The position numbers were made by a program, and so were the translations under genes. A stretch of DNA of 64,000 nucleotides. Source: Georgenia satyanarayanai (GTDB taxonomy: Bacteria; Actinomycetota; Actinomycetes; Actinomycetales; Actinomycetaceae). The notes beneath the pieces were generated by a model, which did no database searches, was not told where the DNA came from, and saw only the letters and a program-made list of their open reading frames with translations. Positions 6,737 through 61,828 of this stretch are shown in pieces. The stretch spans positions 186,001 through 250,000 of the forward strand of contig NZ_VUKC01000003.1 in assembly GCF_009193135.1 (NCBI RefSeq), given 5' to 3'. Positions within the stretch are counted from its first letter, which is position 1. Every line of letters starts with the position of its first letter.

Positions 6737-6751
6737 GACGCCCGACCGCTG

Positions 6752-37525: not shown

Positions 37526-39595
37526 TCAGGGCCGGTGGACCCCGAGCGTGTCGGTGCCGTCACCGTCCCAGTCCCCCACGAGGACGACGTCGTTGCGCCG
37601 CCCGTAGTTGAGGACGAGGTCCGCGGGCCCGCCGGAGATCGTGTTCTTCACGTGGTAGGCGATCCCGCGTCGCACGGCGAAGGTGTCGACGCCGTCGCCG
37701 TCCCAGTCCCCGACGAGGACGTGGTCGCCGGCGCGGCCGTAGGTGATGACCGTGTCGGCCGGCCCGCCGGCGATCCGGTTCTTCACGTGGAAGACGTTCT
37801 GGCGGCGCACCGCGAAGGTGTCCTCACCGTCGGTGTCCCAGTCCCCGACGAGCACCTCGTCGCCGGTGCGGCCGTAGACGAACACGTGGTCGGCGTCGCC
37901 GGAGGAGATCGTGTTCTTCACGTGGAAGGTCTTGCCGCGCCGCACCGCGAAGGTGTCGGTGCCGTCGCCGTCCCAGTCGCCCACGAGCACCTCGTCGTTC
38001 GCGCGGCCGTACTGGACCACCGTCTGGAGGGAGCCGGCCGCGTTGCGGCCGTGGACGTAGAAGGTGTTGCCCTTGCGGATGGCGAGGGTGTCGGTGCCGT
38101 CGCCGTCCCAGTCGCCGACGAAGATCTGGGAGCCCTTGTCACCCAGGGGGAAGTCGACGCTCGACCACGGCGTCCAGTCGTTGTTGAGGTAGACCCTGCC
38201 GGTGTGCGTGATCGGGTCGGCGATGGGCGCGGGGGCCGCGGGCTTGGCCGGCGTCGTCGGCGTCGGGGTCGGCGTCGGCGCCGGCGCGGAGGTCACGGCG
38301 TCGACCCGCTGGTCGGTGGCCCGGGCCAGCCAGCCCATGCGGGAGTAGATGTCGTCACCGGGGCAGGCGGTGGCGGAGACGTCGCGGTGCGCGAAGACAC
38401 GGCCCAGGCTCTGTCCCTTGGGGCGCGCGTACGTGCCCGGGGAGACCATGCCGGAGCTCGCCGCCGCCGTGAGGCCCGCGCGCCCGAACTGCCAGGCGAG
38501 GATGTCGGCCATGGCGTTCATCGCGGCGCTCGGGACGCCGACCTTCGTGTAGTCGCCCATGATGCTGAGCCCCACGGTGCCGGTGTTGAACGGCGCCGCG
38601 TGAGCGCCGACGGGCATCTGGCCGGTGGCCGAGGCCAGGGTGCCGCTGCGCCCTTCGTAGATTCGTCCCCACTTGTCGATGAGGAAGTTGTAGCCGATGT
38701 CGCCCCAGCCGCGGGTGATCGCGTGGTAGCTGTAGATGCCGCGCACGATGCTCGGGCTCTGCGCCTGGGTGTAGCTGTTCGTCCCGGCCGTGTGGTGGAT
38801 GACGGTGGCGCGCAGGGGCGCGTAGGACGGGCGCCACGCCATCTGTGACTCGTTCGCGCCCCACCCGGCGCGAGTGGTGATCGCGGGGCGCGGGACGGGC
38901 ACGGCGGCCCGGGTGGCGGTCGCGGCCTGCGTGGTGGCCTGGGCGGCCGGGGCCGCGGACACGCGTGGGGCCTGCTGCTGGAACGGGAGCGCGGCCGCCG
39001 GCACGGGTGCGAGCGGGTCGGTGGACGGCGCGAGCGCGGCGGCGGGGGCGTCCTCCTCGAGGACGACCTCGTCCTCACCCGGCCACTCCGGGGTGAGGCT
39101 GAGCCGGACGTTGGCGGGCAGCCGCTCCGCGTCCCCGGTGATCTGGACCTGGACGGCCTCGGCCCCGGCGGCGATGTAGGGCTCGGTCCCGCCCGTGGTG
39201 CCGACGTCGTCCGCCCCGGCCTCGACCTCGAGCTGTGCCCAGTCCTGCCACGCACCGCCCTCCATCACCCGGATGAAGACGGCGGCGTCGTGCGGGAGCG
39301 CCTCCACACCGTCCCAGGTCACGCCCGCCACGTAGAACTCCTCCGTGGCGATGGGGGCGGTGAGGACGGCGACGTCGTCGGCGTCGGGCACCGACTGGGT
39401 GCGCACGGAGCGCGCACTGCGCTGCAGCCGCTCCAGCCCCGCGTCGGCGAGCCCGGTGAGGCTGCCGTCCGTGGCGGTGAGGGGGACGACGGTGATCGGC
39501 TCCTCCGGGGCGGTCGCGGCCGCGGCGGGGACCGTGCCCGCGAGGACCAGCGAGGTGACGACGAGCGTGGGGCGGACAGCCCTGAACAGTGGCAT
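37526..39595 (-). CDS. Secreted N-acetylmuramoyl-L-alanine amidase with C-terminal DWDGDG repeats
   Basis: Exported peptidoglycan hydrolase or recognition protein of 689 residues. A signal peptide (LVVTSLVLAGTVPAAAATA) is followed by a beta-rich region (about 30-210), then a PGRP/amidase_2 domain (about 260-425): ATVIHHTAG and AHRDVSATACPGDD supply the His, His and Cys zinc ligands, so it should be active. After a Pro/Thr linker come about 4.5 repeats of 45 residues (489-689). The same module ends the hydrolase at 48104-50473. ATG 39595 has GGAAG about 11 nt upstream. Confidence 0.92.
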   Translation of the reverse strand: MPLFRAVRPTLVVTSLVLAGTVPAAAATAPEEPITVVPLTATDGSLTGLADAGLERLQRSARSVRTQSVPDADDVAVLTAPIATEEFYVAGVTWDGVEALPHDAAVFIRVMEGGAWQDWAQLEVEAGADDVGTTGGTEPYIAAGAEAVQVQITGDAERLPANVRLSLTPEWPGEDEVVLEEDAPAAALAPSTDPLAPVPAAALPFQQQAPRVSAAPAAQATTQAATATRAAVPVPRPAITTRAGWGANESQMAWRPSYAPLRATVIHHTAGTNSYTQAQSPSIVRGIYSYHAITRGWGDIGYNFLIDKWGRIYEGRSGTLASATGQMPVGAHAAPFNTGTVGLSIMGDYTKVGVPSAAMNAMADILAWQFGRAGLTAAASSGMVSPGTYARPKGQSLGRVFAHRDVSATACPGDDIYSRMGWLARATDQRVDAVTSAPAPTPTPTPTTPAKPAAPAPIADPITHTGRVYLNNDWTPWSSVDFPLGDKGSQIFVGDWDGDGTDTLAIRKGNTFYVHGRNAAGSLQTVVQYGRANDEVLVGDWDGDGTDTFAVRRGKTFHVKNTISSGDADHVFVYGRTGDEVLVGDWDTDGEDTFAVRRQNVFHVKNRIAGGPADTVITYGRAGDHVLVGDWDGDGVDTFAVRRGIAYHVKNTISGGPADLVLNYGRRNDVVLVGDWDGDGTDTLGVHRP
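37529..38131 (-). repeat. Coding tandem repeat, 135-bp (45-residue) DWDGDG units
   Basis: Four full units and one partial, each starting VLVGDWDGDGTDTFAVRRG and ending in YGR-x-D. The DxDxDG core resembles FG-GAP/integrin-like calcium-binding loops; a beta-propeller or surface-binding module is inferred. Confidence 0.85.
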
Positions 39596-48103: not shown

Positions 48104-50473
48104 TCAGGGGGTGCGGCGCACGCCCAGGGTGTCGGTGCCGTTCCCGTCCCAGTCACCGACGAGGACCGCGTCATCGGCGCGGCCGTAGGTGAGGACGCGG
48201 TCGGCGTCCCCGCCCGTCAGGGTGTTCTTCACGTGGTAGGTCGCCCCGCGACGGACGGCGAAGGTGTCGCGCCCGTCCCCGTCCCAGTCACCGGCGAGGG
48301 TGATGTCGCCCGGGCGGCCGTAGGTGAGGACGACGTCGGCGTCCCCGCCGGCGATGGCGTTCCTCACGTGGTAGCGCGCCCCGCGGCGCACGGCCAGCGT
48401 GTCGACGCCGTCGCCGTCCCAGTCGGCGACGACGACCGTGTCGCTCGCGCGGCCGTACCGGACGACGACGTCCGCGGCGCCCGAGGCCATCGTGTTGCGC
48501 ACGTGGTACTCCGCCCCGCGGCGCACCGCGAAGGTGTCCCGACCGTCACCGTCCCAGTCACCGACGAGCACGGTGTCCCCGGGCCGGCCGTAGAGGACGA
48601 CGCGCTCGGCGTCCCCGCCACGGGCGGCGTTGTTGACGTAGAAGCGGTTCCCGCGGCGCACCGTGAGGGTGTCCGTGCCGTCGCCGTCCCAGTCGCCGAC
48701 CAGCACCTCGTCGGTGTGCCGGCCGTACTGGAAGACGACGTCGGCCCGCCCGTCCCAGTTGTTGTTGAGGAAGAACCCGTAGCGCTGCGGGCCCGGCTCG
48801 GGCTCCGGCTCCGGCTCGCGCTCGGGCAGCACGGCCAGGGCGGCCTGGGCCTGGCGCAGCACGGCCGCCTTCGCGGCCGCGTCGGTGTCGGAGCCGCCGA
48901 CGAGGGCGACGACGCGCTCGAGCTGCTCGACGGCGAGGTCGAGCTCGCCGTCGTCGGCGTACCGCAGCGCCTGCTCGGCCGCGGTGGTGAGGTCGCCGGC
49001 GAGCGCCTCGGAGAGACGGTCCTCCGCCGCGAGGTCACCGACCAGGTAGGAGAGGTCGGAGTACCACGCCTGGTCGACGGCGACGTTCGCCGGCACGTGC
49101 CCCTGCTCCACCGCGTGGGCGGTGGAGGCGGCGACCTGCTCGGCGTAGGCCTCGGGCGTGGGGTAGAGCTCGGCGAGCACGTCCTCGGGCAGCGGGGCCG
49201 AGCTGCCGTCGAGGAAGCAGAACCCGGGACCGGAGTTGACGCCACTGTTGACGCGGATCGGCACGTCCTGCGCGGCCAGGCGGATGCCGCCCTGGGCGAG
49301 GCCGAGCTCGTCCCGGACGATCTCCCCCTCCGCGTCCAGCTCGATCGGCTCCGCGGTCGGGGGCTTGACGCCGTGGGCGACCCACGCGACGGTGTGGTCG
49401 TACACGGCCGCCTGCACCTGGTGCTGCGGTACCCGTGACAGGGAGGGCAGGTCGCAGGTCTGCGGCACGTCGGGGTGGCCGCCGGGCAGGGTGCCGATGT
49501 CTCGCAGGCGGAGCGGGCCGTAGTCGGTGATGAGCTTCCAGTCGCCGTGCGAGGCTCCGGCCACCTCCCAGGTGCGCAGCACGTCCGAGTCCGGCTGACG
49601 CTGGGCCGCCCCGAGGAGGTCGATGGCGACGTCACCCTCGGAGTTCAGCTTGAACAGCGGGGTGTCGAGGTCCGTGCGGACCGTGCCGCCACCGCCGTGG
49701 AGGACGACGGCGTCGAGGATGTCGGCGAGCGGCTGGACGCTGTTGTAGTAGGTGTGCAGGCGCCCGGCGGACTGCGAGTGTCCCGTGGCGATGACGTACT
49801 CCGGGTCGAGGGGCCCGAGCGGGTCGGTGCCCGCCGGGTCCCGCAGCGCCTTCACGGCCTGGCTGAACACGTCGTAGGACAGGGTGTCGTCGGTGACGGT
49901 GCCACCGTCGGTGAGGTCGAGGGAGCCGTAGCGGTCCGGGCTCCAGGCCTTGAGGCCGGTGGCCGAGTGGACGCCGGCACGCTGGGCGGAGACGCCGACC
50001 CACGTGTAGCCCTCGCGCATGAGGTGCTCGTGGGTCTGGAACCAGTCGACCTCCTGGTCCCACTGGTTGGAGACGTTGAGCCACTCGGTGATGACGACGC
50101 CGTTGAAGTCGGCCTCCTGCGCCGGGCGGCGGACGACGAGGCGCGTCGTGTACGGGTGGCCGGAACTCGTGACGACGGCGTCGGACAGCCCGTCCGCGGC
50201 GTAGCGGGTGGCCTCGCCCGAGACGAGGAACTCCTCCTCGACGTAGCCTGCGGCGTCCAGGTCCACGTCGGTGGCGAGGAACGGGTAGCCGTGGGCGGGG
50301 TCCCCGACCGGGCTGGTGAGCGGCACGGGCCCCGTCACGGTGGGCGCGGCCACCGTCTCGCCCGCCGCCTGCGACTCGTGGCGCTCGGGCCCGGGCGGCG
50401 CGGCGGGTGGTGCGAGCAGGGCGGGGAAGGTGAGGGCGGATGCGGCGACGAGCGCCGTGAGGGTGCGTGCCAT
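48104..50473 (-). CDS. Secreted alpha/beta hydrolase-domain protein with C-terminal DWDGDG repeats
   Basis: Exported protein of 789 residues. A signal peptide (LTALVAASALTFPALLAPPAA) is followed by an alpha/beta-hydrolase_10-type domain (about 50-480): the nucleophile elbow is GHSQSAGR, and GASHGDW may hold the catalytic His. A helical region (about 490-570) and a Glu/Pro linker lead to about 4.5 repeats of 45 residues (590-789) like those of the amidase at 37526. Substrate unknown. ATG 50473 has GGGAGC 5 nt upstream and an excellent promoter. Confidence 0.88.
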   Translation of the reverse strand: MARTLTALVAASALTFPALLAPPAAPPGPERHESQAAGETVAAPTVTGPVPLTSPVGDPAHGYPFLATDVDLDAAGYVEEEFLVSGEATRYAADGLSDAVVTSSGHPYTTRLVVRRPAQEADFNGVVITEWLNVSNQWDQEVDWFQTHEHLMREGYTWVGVSAQRAGVHSATGLKAWSPDRYGSLDLTDGGTVTDDTLSYDVFSQAVKALRDPAGTDPLGPLDPEYVIATGHSQSAGRLHTYYNSVQPLADILDAVVLHGGGGTVRTDLDTPLFKLNSEGDVAIDLLGAAQRQPDSDVLRTWEVAGASHGDWKLITDYGPLRLRDIGTLPGGHPDVPQTCDLPSLSRVPQHQVQAAVYDHTVAWVAHGVKPPTAEPIELDAEGEIVRDELGLAQGGIRLAAQDVPIRVNSGVNSGPGFCFLDGSSAPLPEDVLAELYPTPEAYAEQVAASTAHAVEQGHVPANVAVDQAWYSDLSYLVGDLAAEDRLSEALAGDLTTAAEQALRYADDGELDLAVEQLERVVALVGGSDTDAAAKAAVLRQAQAALAVLPEREPEPEPEPGPQRYGFFLNNNWDGRADVVFQYGRHTDEVLVGDWDGDGTDTLTVRRGNRFYVNNAARGGDAERVVLYGRPGDTVLVGDWDGDGRDTFAVRRGAEYHVRNTMASGAADVVVRYGRASDTVVVADWDGDGVDTLAVRRGARYHVRNAIAGGDADVVLTYGRPGDITLAGDWDGDGRDTFAVRRGATYHVKNTLTGGDADRVLTYGRADDAVLVGDWDGNGTDTLGVRRTP
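48107..48706 (-). repeat. Coding tandem repeat, 135-bp (45-residue) DWDGDG units
   Basis: Four full units and one partial, VLVGDWDGDGTDTLTVRRG and relatives, ending at the protein C-terminus. One unit has VADWDGDG instead of VGDWDGDG, and the last has DWDGNG. Confidence 0.85.
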
Positions 50474-57726: not shown

Positions 57727-58254
57727 ATGACCGCGACCGACGAGACCCTCACCCCCTCTGCCGCCCTCCGCGCCCGCCAGCGCCCGCTCAAGACCGCCTA
57801 CAAGGAGGACCCGGCCAGCGCGCTCGTCACGAGCACCGCGACGGCCCGGGTGGACCAGGGCACGCTGACCGCGACCGTGCCGACGTGGGCAGGCGATGTC
57901 GTCGCCGGGCTCCACCCGGCCACCGGCGGTGACGGCGCCCAGGCGTGCTCGGCGGACATCGTCCTCCAGGCGCTCGTCGCCTGCGCCGGCGTCACCCTCT
58001 CCTCCGTGGCGACGGCGATGGGTATCGAGCTGCGCTCGGCGAGCGTCACCGCCAACGGCACCTGGGACGCCCGCGGCACCCTCGGGGTGGACCGCGAGGC
58101 GCCGGTGGGCCTCTCCTCCGTGGAGGTGCTCGTCGACCTCGACACAGACGCCGACGACGACGCCGTTGCCAAGCTCCTCGAGCTCACCGAGCGCTACTGC
58201 GTCGTCGCCCGCACCCTCACCGCTCCCCCGCCGGTCACCGTCCGCCGCGCCTGA
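57727..58254 (+). CDS. OsmC family protein
   Basis: Peroxide-reducing or thiol-dependent stress protein of the OsmC/Ohr superfamily, 175 residues, cytoplasmic. Two cysteines stand in the family positions, LQALVACAGVTLSSVA and LTERYCVVARTL, and a conserved PVGLSSVEVLVDLD strand lies between. ATG 57727 has GGAGGAC upstream. Its stop is followed after 16 nt by the first six-unit 18-bp array. Confidence 0.87.
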   Translation: MTATDETLTPSAALRARQRPLKTAYKEDPASALVTSTATARVDQGTLTATVPTWAGDVVAGLHPATGGDGAQACSADIVLQALVACAGVTLSSVATAMGIELRSASVTANGTWDARGTLGVDREAPVGLSSVEVLVDLDTDADDDAVAKLLELTERYCVVARTLTAPPPVTVRRA

Positions 58255-58270
58255 CCCCCTCCCGCCCCCA

Positions 58271-58378
58271 ACCGCCCACAGCCGACTTACCGCCCACAGC
58301 CGACTTACCGCCGACAGCCGACTTACCGCCCACAGCCGACTTACCGCCCACAGCCGACTTACCGCCCACAGCCGAGTT
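58271..58378 (+). repeat. Array A: six tandem 18-bp units
   Basis: Six direct copies of an 18-bp unit, consensus ACCGCCCACAGCCGACTT, at 58271, 58289, 58307, 58325, 58343 and 58361. Unit 3 has one change (GCCGACA) and unit 6 one (CGAGTT). The array is intergenic, 16 nt after the OsmC stop and 14 nt before the convergent lipoprotein stop. Array B at 59762 carries the same unit inverted. Confidence 0.95.
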
Positions 58379-58392
58379 ACCGGCAACGGCGG

Positions 58393-58857
58393 TCAGCCCA
58401 CGATCTCCACCGGGGCGAAGGGATCCTTCGGGCAAGACATGGTGGGGTCGGTCTCGCACGGTGTCCGGGCGCCCTCGAGGTTCACGGACACCTCGGCCCG
58501 ACCGGCCGGAAAGTCCGCCGGCACCTGGAAGCTGCTGCCCGCGCTCTCGTCGTCACCCGGGTTGAGGTCGCCGAGGAATGCCGAGTAGGGCCCCCCGTCG
58601 GTGTCACCGGTGTGGACCTCCGAGGTGATCTCGACCGAGTAGCGCGCGCCGTCGGGCAAGAAAGGCTCGCAGCCCTCTCCGGCGACGCCGGAGACCTCGA
58701 CACGCAGCTCCTCCCCGGGCGCCACGGTGCGCGGTGTCACCACCGGGTCGACCGGTCCGCAGTGTGCAGTCTCGCGACCCGCGTCGACGCAGCCGGCCGT
58801 GATCATGACGGCGAGCAGCGTCGCGGCCAGCGTTGGCACCCTCCGTGGTGCGAGCAC
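58393..58857 (-). CDS. Predicted lipoprotein
   Basis: Exported lipoprotein of 154 residues, function unknown. A signal peptide with lipobox MITAGCVD is followed by a beta-rich, Ig-like stretch (PRTVAPGEELRVEVSGVAGEGC, ARYSVEITSEVHTGD) with three further cysteines. GTG 58857 follows TACGGT (58864-58869) by 6 nt; GTG 58860 is the alternative. It lies between the two 18-bp arrays, as does the trmH-family gene. Confidence 0.78.
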   Translation of the reverse strand: MLAPRRVPTLAATLLAVMITAGCVDAGRETAHCGPVDPVVTPRTVAPGEELRVEVSGVAGEGCEPFLPDGARYSVEITSEVHTGDTDGGPYSAFLGDLNPGDDESAGSSFQVPADFPAGRAEVSVNLEGARTPCETDPTMSCPKDPFAPVEIVG

Positions 58858-58899
58858 CACTGAACCGTAACAGCGGCTATGTCGCCCCGAAGCCGTCGG

Positions 58900-59721
58900 C
58901 TACCGGGTCGCGTAGAAGACGACGGCGGCCGAGGCGGCAACGTTGAGGGAGTCCACCCCGGCGGCCATCGGGATGCGGACGACCCGGTCGGCCATCCGTA
59001 GGACGCGTGGGGAGAGCCCATGGCCCTCGGGGCCGAAGACGAAGGCCGAGCGCTCGTGGTTCTCGGCGACGTACTCGTCCAGGCTGATCGAGTCGTCGCT
59101 CAGCGCGAGTGCCGCCACCGTGTAGCCGAGGCGCTGGGCCTGCTCGATGGCACCGGGCCACGACTCCAGGCGCGTCCACGGCACCTGGAACACCGTGCCC
59201 ATCGACACCCGGACCGAGCGGCGGTACAGCGGGTCGGCGGAGGTGGGCGTCATGAGGACGGCATCTACCCCGAGGGCCGCAGCGCTGCGGAAGGCGGCTC
59301 CGAGATTTGTGTGGTCGACCATGCCGTCGAAGACCGCCACGCGTCGGGCGCCGCCGACGACCTCTTCGACCGACCGCAGCGGCGGACGGTGCATGGCTGC
59401 CAGCGCTCCGCGGTGCAGGTGGAAGCCGGTGATCGCCTCGAGCACCGGCTCCTCGGCGACGAACACCGGGACGTCCGACCCGCCGTCGTCGGCGCCGCAG
59501 GCTCCGGTGATGACCGGTGCCATGGTCTCCAGCCACTTCTCGGCCATGAGGAAGGAGCGGGGGCGGTGGCCAGCGCGGATCGCCCGCGTGATGACGTTCG
59601 TGCTCTCGGCCATGTAGAGGCCGCGCTCGGTCTCCAGGCGACGTCGCAGAGCGAGGTCGGTGAGGCCGGTGTAGTCGAGGAGGCGGTCGTCGGCGGGATC
59701 GGTGATGCGGATGAGCGGCAC
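58900..59721 (-). CDS. TrmH family RNA 2'-O-methyltransferase
   Basis: SPOUT-class RNA ribose methyltransferase of 273 residues; substrate (rRNA or tRNA) not determinable. Residues 1-100 are a substrate-binding domain (YMAESTNVITRAIRAGHRP). The knot motifs are VFDGMVDHTNLGAAFRSAAALG, VFGPEGHGLSP and SLNVAASAAVVFYATR. GTG 59721 follows CAGAAT (59728-59733) by 6 nt. A longer frame would run through array B and add SPTAEL-type repeats; the promoter argues against it. Confidence 0.9.
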   Translation of the reverse strand: MPLIRITDPADDRLLDYTGLTDLALRRRLETERGLYMAESTNVITRAIRAGHRPRSFLMAEKWLETMAPVITGACGADDGGSDVPVFVAEEPVLEAITGFHLHRGALAAMHRPPLRSVEEVVGGARRVAVFDGMVDHTNLGAAFRSAAALGVDAVLMTPTSADPLYRRSVRVSMGTVFQVPWTRLESWPGAIEQAQRLGYTVAALALSDDSISLDEYVAENHERSAFVFGPEGHGLSPRVLRMADRVVRIPMAAGVDSLNVAASAAVVFYATR

Positions 59722-59761
59722 CGGACCATTCTGCCGTGGGGCAGACCGGACTCCCGTCGAC

Positions 59762-59869
59762 AACTCGGCTCTCGGCGACAACTCGGCTCTCGGCGACAAC
59801 TCGGCTGTCGGCGGTAAGTCGGCTGTCGGCGACAACTCGGCTGTCGGCGACAAGTCGGCTGTCGGCGGG
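59762..59869 (-). repeat. Array B: six tandem 18-bp units, inverted relative to array A
   Basis: Six direct copies at 59762, 59780, 59798, 59816, 59834 and 59852. On the plus strand the unit is AACTCGGCTGTCGGCGAC; on the minus strand it reads GTCGCCGACAGCCGAGTT, matching the array A unit at 14 of 18 positions. It begins 30 nt downstream of the ABC operon stop (minus strand) and lies just upstream of the trmH-family promoter. Confidence 0.95.
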
Positions 59870-59899
59870 AAGGGAAGACCGGGTGGTGGTGGCCGGGTG

Positions 59900-61828
59900 C
59901 TACTCCTCGGCGAGGGCGGGGGCGGCGAACTGGCTGCGGTAGAGGCGGGCGTAGGCGCCGTCCGCCTCGAGCAGCTCCTCGTGGGTGCCCTGCTCGACGA
60001 TGTCGCCGTGCTCCATGACGAGGATGACGTCCGCGTCGCGGATGGTGCTCAGCCGGTGGGCGATGACAAAGGACGTGCGGCCGCTGCGCAGCCGGGTCAT
60101 CGCCTGCTGGACGAGCATCTCCGTGCGGGTGTCGACCGAGCTCGTCGCCTCGTCGAGGATGAGGAGCTGCGGGTCGGAGAGGAAGGCGCGCGCGATCGTG
60201 ATGAGCTGCTTCTCCCCGGCGGAGACGCCACCGCCCTCCTCGTCGATGACGGTGTCGTAGCCCTCGGGCAGGCTCTGGACGAAACGGTCGACGCTCGCCG
60301 CCTCGGCCGCGCGGTGCACGTCCTGCTCGGTGGCGCCGTCGCGGCCGAAGGCGATGTTCTCCCTGATCGTGCCCTCGAAGAGCCACGTGTCCTGGAGGAC
60401 CATCCCGATCGGCTCACGCAGGTCCTGGCGGGTCATCTCGCGGGTGTCGACGCCGTCGATGAGGATGCGCCCGGAGTCGATCTCGTAGAAGCGCATGAGG
60501 AGGTTGACCAGGGTGGTCTTGCCCGCGCCGGTGGGCCCGACGACGGCGACCGTCTGCCCGGGCCGGACGTCGAGGTCGAGGCGGGTGATGAGCGGGCGCT
60601 CGGGGTCGTAGCTGAAGGCGACGTCCTCGAGGCGGACCGCGCCGCGCACCTGCGGCGGCCGCTTGCCCGGCTCGGGGTCGGCCGACTGCTCGGGGGCGTC
60701 CATGATGTCGAAGATGCGCTCCGCGGAGGCCACGCCGGACTGGACGAGGTTGGCCATCGAGGCGAGCTGGGCGAGCGGCTGGGTGAACTGCCGGGAGTAC
60801 TGGATGAAGGCCTGGACCGAGCCGAGGCTGAGGTCACCGGAGGCCACCCGCAGGCCGCCGACGACGGCGACGAGCACGTAGTTGAGGTTCCCGACGAACC
60901 CCATCATCGGCATGATCGTCCCGGAGATGAACTGGGAGCGGAAGCTCGCCGCGAAGAGCCGCTCGTTGTCCGCGTCGAAGCCCTCGCGCACGGAGTCCTG
61001 GGCGTTGAAGGCGGTGACGAGCTCGTGGCCGGTGAAGGCCTCCTCGACCTTGCCGCCGAGGTCCCCGGTGGACTTCCACTGAGCCACGAAGTGCGGCTGG
61101 GCGCGCTTGGCGATGGTCGCCGTCGCCCACGCGGACACGGGCACGGTGACGAGCGCGATGAGCGCGAGCTGCCAGGACAGCACGAACATCATGACGAGCA
61201 CGCCGACGACCGTGACGAGCGAGGTGACGACCTGCGAGAGCGTCTGCTGGAGCGTCTGGGAGACGTTGTCGATGTCGTTGGTGACCCGCGACAGGACGTC
61301 GCCACGAGCGCGGGAGTCGAGCTCGCGGAGCGGCAGGCGGTCGATCTTCGCCTGGACGTCGCGGCGCAGCTGGAAGGCGGTGCGCTGGACGATGCCCGCG
61401 AGCATCCGCCCCTGGACCCAGAGGAACAGCGCCGAGCCGACGTAGACGGCGAGCACGAGGAGCGCCATCCGGCCCAGCGCGTCGAAGTCGATGCCCTGGC
61501 CGGGCACGACGTTCTCCATGCCGCCGACCATCTGGGCGACCTGGTCCTGGCCCGCCGCACGCAGGCCCGCCACGGCCTGCTCGAGGGTGGCCCCCTCCGG
61601 GAGCATCCGGCCGACGACCCCGTTGAAGACGATGTCGGTGGCGCGCCCGAGCAGCGTGGGGCCGAGCACCTGCAGCCCGACCGCGACGACGGCGAGGACC
61701 AGGACGACGACGAGCCGCACCCGCTCCGGCGCCATCGCGCGCAGCAGCCGCCTCAGCGAGGCTCCGAAGTTGGCCGACTTCTCGCCGGGCGGGATCCCGG
61801 CGACAGGCCCTGGACGGTGGTGGCTCAT
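59900..61828 (-). CDS. ABC transporter ATP-binding/permease protein (second half of heterodimer)
   Basis: Half-transporter of 642 residues of the type IV exporter (MdlB/Rv1272c-like) group. Six spans occupy about 35-340, with a long extracytoplasmic loop at 68-110. The ATPase domain has Walker A VGPTGAGKTT, Walker B LLILDEATSSVD with an intact catalytic Glu, and a non-canonical signature VSAGEKQL instead of LSGGQ. ATG 61828 overlaps the partner stop (ATGA). Substrate may be drugs or lipids. The gene ends upstream of array B. Confidence 0.92.
   Translation of the reverse strand: MSHHRPGPVAGIPPGEKSANFGASLRRLLRAMAPERVRLVVVLVLAVVAVGLQVLGPTLLGRATDIVFNGVVGRMLPEGATLEQAVAGLRAAGQDQVAQMVGGMENVVPGQGIDFDALGRMALLVLAVYVGSALFLWVQGRMLAGIVQRTAFQLRRDVQAKIDRLPLRELDSRARGDVLSRVTNDIDNVSQTLQQTLSQVVTSLVTVVGVLVMMFVLSWQLALIALVTVPVSAWATATIAKRAQPHFVAQWKSTGDLGGKVEEAFTGHELVTAFNAQDSVREGFDADNERLFAASFRSQFISGTIMPMMGFVGNLNYVLVAVVGGLRVASGDLSLGSVQAFIQYSRQFTQPLAQLASMANLVQSGVASAERIFDIMDAPEQSADPEPGKRPPQVRGAVRLEDVAFSYDPERPLITRLDLDVRPGQTVAVVGPTGAGKTTLVNLLMRFYEIDSGRILIDGVDTREMTRQDLREPIGMVLQDTWLFEGTIRENIAFGRDGATEQDVHRAAEAASVDRFVQSLPEGYDTVIDEEGGGVSAGEKQLITIARAFLSDPQLLILDEATSSVDTRTEMLVQQAMTRLRSGRTSFVIAHRLSTIRDADVILVMEHGDIVEQGTHEELLEADGAYARLYRSQFAAPALAEE

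Follow-up and report, generated by a model that had tools for sequence, protein, structure and literature searches.

A Georgenia-specific family of dispersed, polar repeat elements with a short-range inward-pair rule

Why should two tandem arrays of the same 18-bp unit stand on opposite strands around two genes in Georgenia satyanarayanai? The locus lies in a 64,000-nucleotide stretch of its genome that was analysed as a whole (hereafter, the window). Array A (58272-58379, plus strand; CCGCCSACAGCCGASTTA) and array B (59761-59868, minus strand; YCGCCGASAGCCGASTTR) each consist of six 18-bp units according to both Tandem Repeats Finder (array A, 58271-58382: period 18, 6.2 copies, 96% matches, score 210; array B, 59758-59867: 6.1 copies, 91% matches, score 178) and a position weight matrix scan. 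Two six-unit arrays on opposite strands were what an earlier note on this DNA had described; the arrays it placed here are real, though its register was one base off. Its estimate that the units agree at about 14 of 18 positions after reversal also holds (14.7 of 18). Besides A and B, the matrix scan at its threshold found a single weak unit match in the 64 kb, at 38150 (score 9.3 versus 25 to 30). Array A lies between the stop codon (58254) of an OsmC-like gene (57727-58254, plus strand; open reading frame with Pfam OsmC match, 3.7e-17) and the stop codon (58393) of a convergent small lipoprotein-like gene (58393-58860, minus strand; the earlier note's label, with no Pfam match). Array B lies between the start of a SpoU/TrmH-family RNA methyltransferase gene (58900-59721, minus strand; Pfam and comparison with relatives) and the 3′ end of an ABC transporter gene (59900-61828, minus strand; open reading frame and Pfam), 31 bp away. 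The bracket thus holds the lipoprotein-like and trmH genes, with the OsmC-like and ABC transporter genes as outer flanks. A C-rich leader follows the OsmC stop codon immediately and precedes the units of A (58255-58271, plus strand; recognized from the sequence and from tract enrichment over arrays), and a pyrimidine-rich leader, read from the sequence, lies 5′ of the minus-strand units of B (59869-59888, minus strand).

Far from standing alone as a pair, A and B belong to a family of polar elements that is dispersed and specific to Georgenia. A two-unit pattern with up to two mismatches matched the window's genome (G000) 155 + 143 times (298), versus 0 + 0 for a reversed control, and a BLAST search of this genome with the region returned 135 matches, many places being counted on both strands; all fell on array parts, save the region itself and two ABC-gene matches. 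We merged matches into 69 places and fetched 48 surrounding stretches (352 kb), in which a weight matrix found 453 unit matches versus 18 in shuffled sequence. These stretches hold at least 80 arrays (four of a single unit, at least 76 of two or more) with one consensus, YCGCCGACAGCCGASTTV. A second species, G141 (one contig, 3.45 Mb), has at least 62, including one single unit and one both-strand overlap, and about 61 have two or more units; the array lists of both genomes are incomplete and their counts are lower bounds, about a dozen further G141 matches having been seen later. BLAST with array A, among the matches listed, found it in all five other Georgenia genomes (at least 56 matches in G141, 41 in G137, 15 in G139, 8 in G138, and 3 in G140). 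The search of the genome and its relatives that the earlier note had proposed therefore bears out its idea of a genome-wide dispersed repeat family. The two-unit pattern is present in 4 of 213 genomes of the family (36 genera) and 2 of 396 sampled from the order (109 genera), all of them Georgenia and none from another sampled genus; a related motif, GCGCCGACAGCTGGATCNCGCAC, is present in 5 of the 213, again only in Georgenia. A pattern search of genome contigs, a set from which near genomes may be absent, gave no match. We rejected a plasmid or phage origin, since array A matched no plasmids or phages and no viral contigs, and membership of a known RNA family, for which the sole match, to snoRNA sR28 at E = 0.94, fell short of the cut-off and is attributable to chance. 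Literature searches on Georgenia repeats, 18-bp intergenic repeats, convergent or dispersed repeats with terminators, and REP with Rho turned up no description of the family among the papers listed, nor did a search with the unit sequence, which listed an Escherichia coli recombineering paper; the part of PMC12306157 available to us does not name Georgenia.

Each element is composed of a C-rich, G-poor tract followed by tandem 18-bp units with the core CGASAGCCGASTT, numbering 1 to 12 per array in G000 and 1 to 23 in G141. The G141 unit, CCGCGCGACAGCCGACTT, has the same core but a linker that differs genome-wide (GTCGC or ACCGC in G000, CCGCG or CCGCA in G141), and in the sister genome G140 the copies stand further apart, often at 34-40 bp, and each, judged by eye, follows C-rich sequence. 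The 20 nt 5′ of the units are 59% C and 18% G in G000 (75 arrays) and 65% C and 14% G in G141 (61 arrays), whereas array-free genes (78 in G000 and 42 in G141) are followed by 40-42% C and 33-36% G; the 3′ side is of ordinary composition in both genomes. Over 100 nt of tract plus units, C minus G is 0.20 and 0.21 versus 0.03 in the control, and 63% and 71% of arrays lie above the controls' 95th percentile. Because the 5′ C bias is alike in convergent, tandem-sense, tandem-antisense, divergent, and in-ORF settings, and so independent of gene setting, the tract belongs to the element and gives it a direction. Units are more alike within than between arrays (0.878 versus 0.821 in G000; 0.842 versus 0.795 in G141) and some arrays, those at locus L050 among them, show higher-order doublets, indicating that local slippage does occur. 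These same observations are what could suggest plain slippage products at unrelated simple repeats, but we give that idea almost no credence: one consensus spans 80 arrays, the core is common to species, and tract, position, and pairing all follow rules. As a full explanation, slippage is refuted by the 298 pattern matches versus none, the single consensus, and the shared core. In RNA folding, array A is unstructured (z = -0.06) and array B strongly structured (z = -4.08), so array RNA does not behave uniformly, and CGACA/TGTCG arms occur in only part of the units. Several G000 contigs stop at an array or no more than about 0.8 kb from one (the ends of C1 and C12 and the starts of C2, C10, C17, and C20), and arrays therefore seem to break this assembly; the starts of C17 and C20 are neighbors in G141.

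The elements, which in the 352 kb of G000 are dispersed, mostly extragenic, and present in many copies, are placed at the 3′ ends of genes. Gene calls came from a codon-score predictor made for this analysis, not from a standard gene finder, and it can overlook genes; it called none inside loci L014 and L017, for instance. Arrays lie a median of 22-23 bp from the closest stop codon that faces them (at most 40 bp in 79 of 105), and 56 of the 66 in tandem gaps are nearer the stop than the start. Convergent gaps make up 13 of 58 array gaps in G000 and 26 of 57 in G141, versus 9 of 133 and 4 of 69 array-free gaps in the same stretches (Fisher p = 0.005 and 1.4e-7), and divergent gaps are depleted of arrays (p = 0.008 and 0.003). 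In tandem gaps, array orientation follows the upstream gene 36 times and opposes it 30 times. Predicted ORFs contain 11 G000 arrays with at least two units (8 sense, 3 antisense), and several of these translate as PADSR- or PTADL-like repeats.

The strongest result is that elements lying close together face each other, a striking short-range rule. Neighbors less than 3.5 kb apart in four genomes comprise 52 convergent, 5 same-direction, and 3 divergent pairs: 26 of 30 are convergent in G000 (3 same, 1 divergent), 20 of 23 in G141 (1 same, 2 divergent), and 6 in G137 and G139 together (1 same), while G138 and G140 have no close pairs among the matches listed. Of the three divergent pairs, two have a single unit as a member and the third is the G141 both-strand overlap. 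With the extra G141 matches added and single units and the overlap removed, the counts are 23 convergent, 2 same, and 0 divergent below 3.5 kb versus 3, 2, and 2 at 3.5-10 kb, where the rule is lost; it is therefore short-range. When single cores were counted as well, with a looser regular expression, 20 loci of G137, G138, and G140 gave 11 convergent, 3 same, and 2 divergent pairs (G137: 7, 3, and 1; G140: 4, 0, and 1), these loci having been chosen for known matches or orthologues and four of the G137 pairs being already in the stricter count. Close neighbors are also more numerous in G000 than uniform placing would give (30 versus 6.3 expected), and at spacings of 400-3500 bp G000 and G141 together have 28 convergent, 4 same, and no divergent pairs; several pairs are separated by just 4-135 bp. 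Where the earlier note held that equal copy number and opposite orientation were hard to explain by chance, the orientation proves to be a rule below 3.5 kb in several species, but equal unit number is a coincidence, found in 3 of 46 convergent pairs from two species, and we rejected it as evidence of design. In 34 of 56 cases the outer genes are directed into the bracket (p = 0.14), and insulation by inward flanking genes was accordingly rejected; so was a replichore bias in G141, which looked strand-biased at first (counts 17/16 versus 17/12). The rule calls either for a short-range reader of two facing elements or for a copying mechanism that leaves them pointing at each other.

We compared the window locus with its counterparts in four relatives (G137, G138, G140, and G141, locus L057 being the same sequence as G138). 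L057, from Georgenia satyanarayanai, encodes the closest named relative of the window's TrmH protein (94%). The OsmC, TrmH, and ABC genes are kept in order in all four, without six-unit arrays, and trmH (about 95% identical in G137, G138, and G140; 88% in G141) keeps its orientation. At site A, element and leading tract are absent from all four; in G137 and G140 the stretch between the OsmC and lipoprotein-like genes, where G000 has array A, is longer by about 0.85 kb. Read by eye, site B holds a single unit, related or degenerate, in the relatives, or four spaced units in G140; by weight matrix only the G138 unit scores (7.8). The lipoprotein-like gene is 52-56% identical in G137, G140, and G141, its neighbors 87-97%, and it was not found at the G138 locus. 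The constant place and orientation of trmH speak against the segment being invertible or exchangeable between its inverted repeats, as the earlier note had suggested. Inverted arrays of about 110 bp can recombine, the bracket of L046 encloses a different gene from that of L166, and one gene beside an array, which we take from its sequence to be rsmI-like, is inverted in place between two Georgenia species (L009:2624-3489, L149:436-1301), and in both species a plus array adjoins the 3′ end of this gene and points toward the same minus partner. Against these, trmH is fixed in place and orientation in four of four relatives, three further interiors (L014/L154, L017/L158, and L035/L170) keep their orientation with one assembly compared per species, several pairs have just 4-135 bp between them, and divergent pairs would be equally usable, yet are nearly absent. 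We regard inversion or exchange as very improbable. A mobile gene cassette was likewise rejected, with trmH present in four of four relatives and array surroundings in place at L026 and L035; the differing L046/L166 interior and the lipoprotein-like gene missing from G138 are exceptions. Facing arrays enclose a related AbiEi-type gene in two species (L029:4423-5355, L177:2849-3772) amid different neighbors, nucS and an amidohydrolase gene in one and adenylosuccinate synthetase, STAS, and SpoIIE genes in the other.

At conserved sites, the units differ between species. The sequence around the arrays of L026 and L035 is conserved in four of four relatives, and 14 of 28 comparisons (seven array sites by four sister genomes) carry an element by eye, often of different unit flavor and length. 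The element at position 10033 of L026 is reversed in G141 relative to G000 (by eye), and this opposite orientation is probably an independent gain; elements at 6740 and 7394 of L035, again by eye, are oriented alike in each of the five genomes compared, which suggests retention. G000 and G141 have elements in the same gap at 9 of 10 loci compared, a figure that is not a sharing rate because both sides were fetched for holding arrays. Gains of this kind would be expected of jobless REP- or MITE-like selfish repeats, spread by an enzyme, settling after stop codons where they do least harm, growing by slippage, and pairing as a by-product of insertion. Their restriction to one genus among the genomes sampled, their species-wide flavors (GTCGC/ACCGC, CCGCG/CCGCA), the reversed L026 element, the empty site A in four relatives, and the depletion of divergent gaps all fit such repeats, but random insertion does not give 52 convergent versus 3 divergent pairs, the L035 elements seem to have been retained, and we found no REP-type Y1 transposase (PF01797) in the six Georgenia genomes with a search that finds it in 5 of 14 control genomes. 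Spread by a Y1 transposase was therefore rejected, and selfish repeats without a role are a possible reading, though less likely than not.

The best explanation we can offer, tentatively and short of an even chance, is that the arrays are one-way transcription stops of the Rho-loading kind that have spread like REP/BIME repeats. Sense RNA of the element, C-rich and untranslated after a stop codon, would load Rho or an equivalent, and RNA polymerase arriving from the element's 5′ side would be stopped. Since each stop would work one way, a facing pair would form a two-sided shield, blocking sense and antisense read-through into the bracketed gene or gap. In the window, A would stop read-through from the OsmC-like gene, and B would keep read-through from the ABC transporter gene out of the trmH unit. 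We assume that new copies come from REP-like copying and local slippage. Rho needs C-rich, unstructured, untranslated RNA, and the G000 and G141 arrays supply C-rich, G-poor, mostly post-stop RNA; a Rho RNA-binding domain is encoded in all six Georgenia genomes. Rho does not, however, require a strongly conserved core, and the strong conservation of this one counts against it. Between 57 and 61 kb of the window, the intrinsic-terminator pattern (GC stem-loop plus T run) occurs 0 times versus 0.3 expected. In favor of termination, some sister species have strong stem-loops at the same gene ends instead of elements. We folded 11 of the 14 element-less sites, on one strand: four hairpins recognized by eye gave z = -5.8 to -8.1 when trimmed to the hairpin, one further site gave -2.5, and six had no clear structure. 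In G137 (L183), the gap orthologous to L026 position 9126 holds a near-perfect stem-loop (z = -7.93) in which the unit is joined to its own reverse complement, with TTTCTT after it; here the unit is employed in the manner of an ordinary terminator, in outward order. The six sites without clear structure count against termination, as do the 11 G000 arrays in predicted ORFs and the strong folding of array B. The 36 to 30 split in tandem gaps further indicates that many arrays are not simply terminators of the preceding gene, and the outer-gene count that pairing is not explained by read-through pressure. Rho-type termination thus accounts for the tract, the placement, and the stem-loop swaps but leaves the pair rule unexplained.

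A putative sequence-specific DNA-binding protein might bridge two facing arrays and form a looped domain around a gene, a bacterial counterpart of convergent insulators. The rule is largely independent of neighboring gene direction and vanishes beyond 3.5 kb, core information is high, cooperative binding would suit tandem copies, and at L009/L149 the rsmI-like gene is inverted while its array still points plus toward a minus partner. A unit number varying from 1 to 23 and the single diverged copies in some species fit bridging poorly, and we consider it unlikely; iterons, that is, putative protein-binding sites, are also possible. Less likely still is telomerase-like patching of chromosome gaps. 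Inward-facing arrays whose C tract is always outermost would result if each side of a break or gap were extended at its 3′ end, first with the tract as a primer and then with repeats copied processively on a species-specific template. In a milder version of that improbable scheme, a dedicated Georgenia protein would read the unit, drift with it in each species, and need two facing arrays, which would make a small insulated domain.

The family shares features with several known systems. REP/BIME repeats of Escherichia coli and Pseudomonas are described as dispersed, mostly intergenic repeats of 20-50 nt, often with an inverted partner (PMC2817692, PMC8266576, in the parts available to us), and REPs are there said to facilitate Rho-dependent termination (PMC2817692). 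Georgenia arrays are likewise dispersed, mostly extragenic, multicopy, and accompanied by inverted partners; unlike REPs, the unit does not seem to be a conserved palindrome, its arms being confined to part of the units, and the arrays have one pair polarity, head-to-tail order, a leading C tract, and brackets around whole genes. The available text of PMC8266576 gives REPs a conserved GTAG tetranucleotide beside the palindrome. GTAG is absent from the unit consensus of G000, the flanks having been read by eye. Rho utilization (rut) sites are C-rich, G-poor, and loose in sequence; element RNA resembles them in its composition and untranslated position after stop codons, but the core of the elements is tight and repeated and their copies are dispersed. 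DNA uptake sequences of Neisseria and Haemophilus act as terminators in inverted pairs, and Georgenia also has a short dispersed motif in inverted pairs at gene ends, although in tandem arrays, at far fewer loci, and bracketing genes. Cyanobacterial STRR-type repeats and mycobacterial MIRU are, like the Georgenia arrays, dispersed, intergenic, tandem, and prone to slippage; we know of no leading tract or convergent-pair rule among them. If the pair rule reflects function, it would represent a sequence-defined, orientation-dependent boundary system on the scale of one gene in a bacterium; if it reflects a copying mechanism, these repeats would spread without a REP transposase, and to our knowledge no such spreading has been described. 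Under the functional reading, the several species would serve as natural replicates, and the stem-loop swaps at some gene ends as natural exchanges, with which termination, looping, and end patching could be tested directly.

The window also contains 135-bp tandem repeats of similar consensus at 37548-38011 and 48113-48745, which are probably 45-residue repeats of related proteins.
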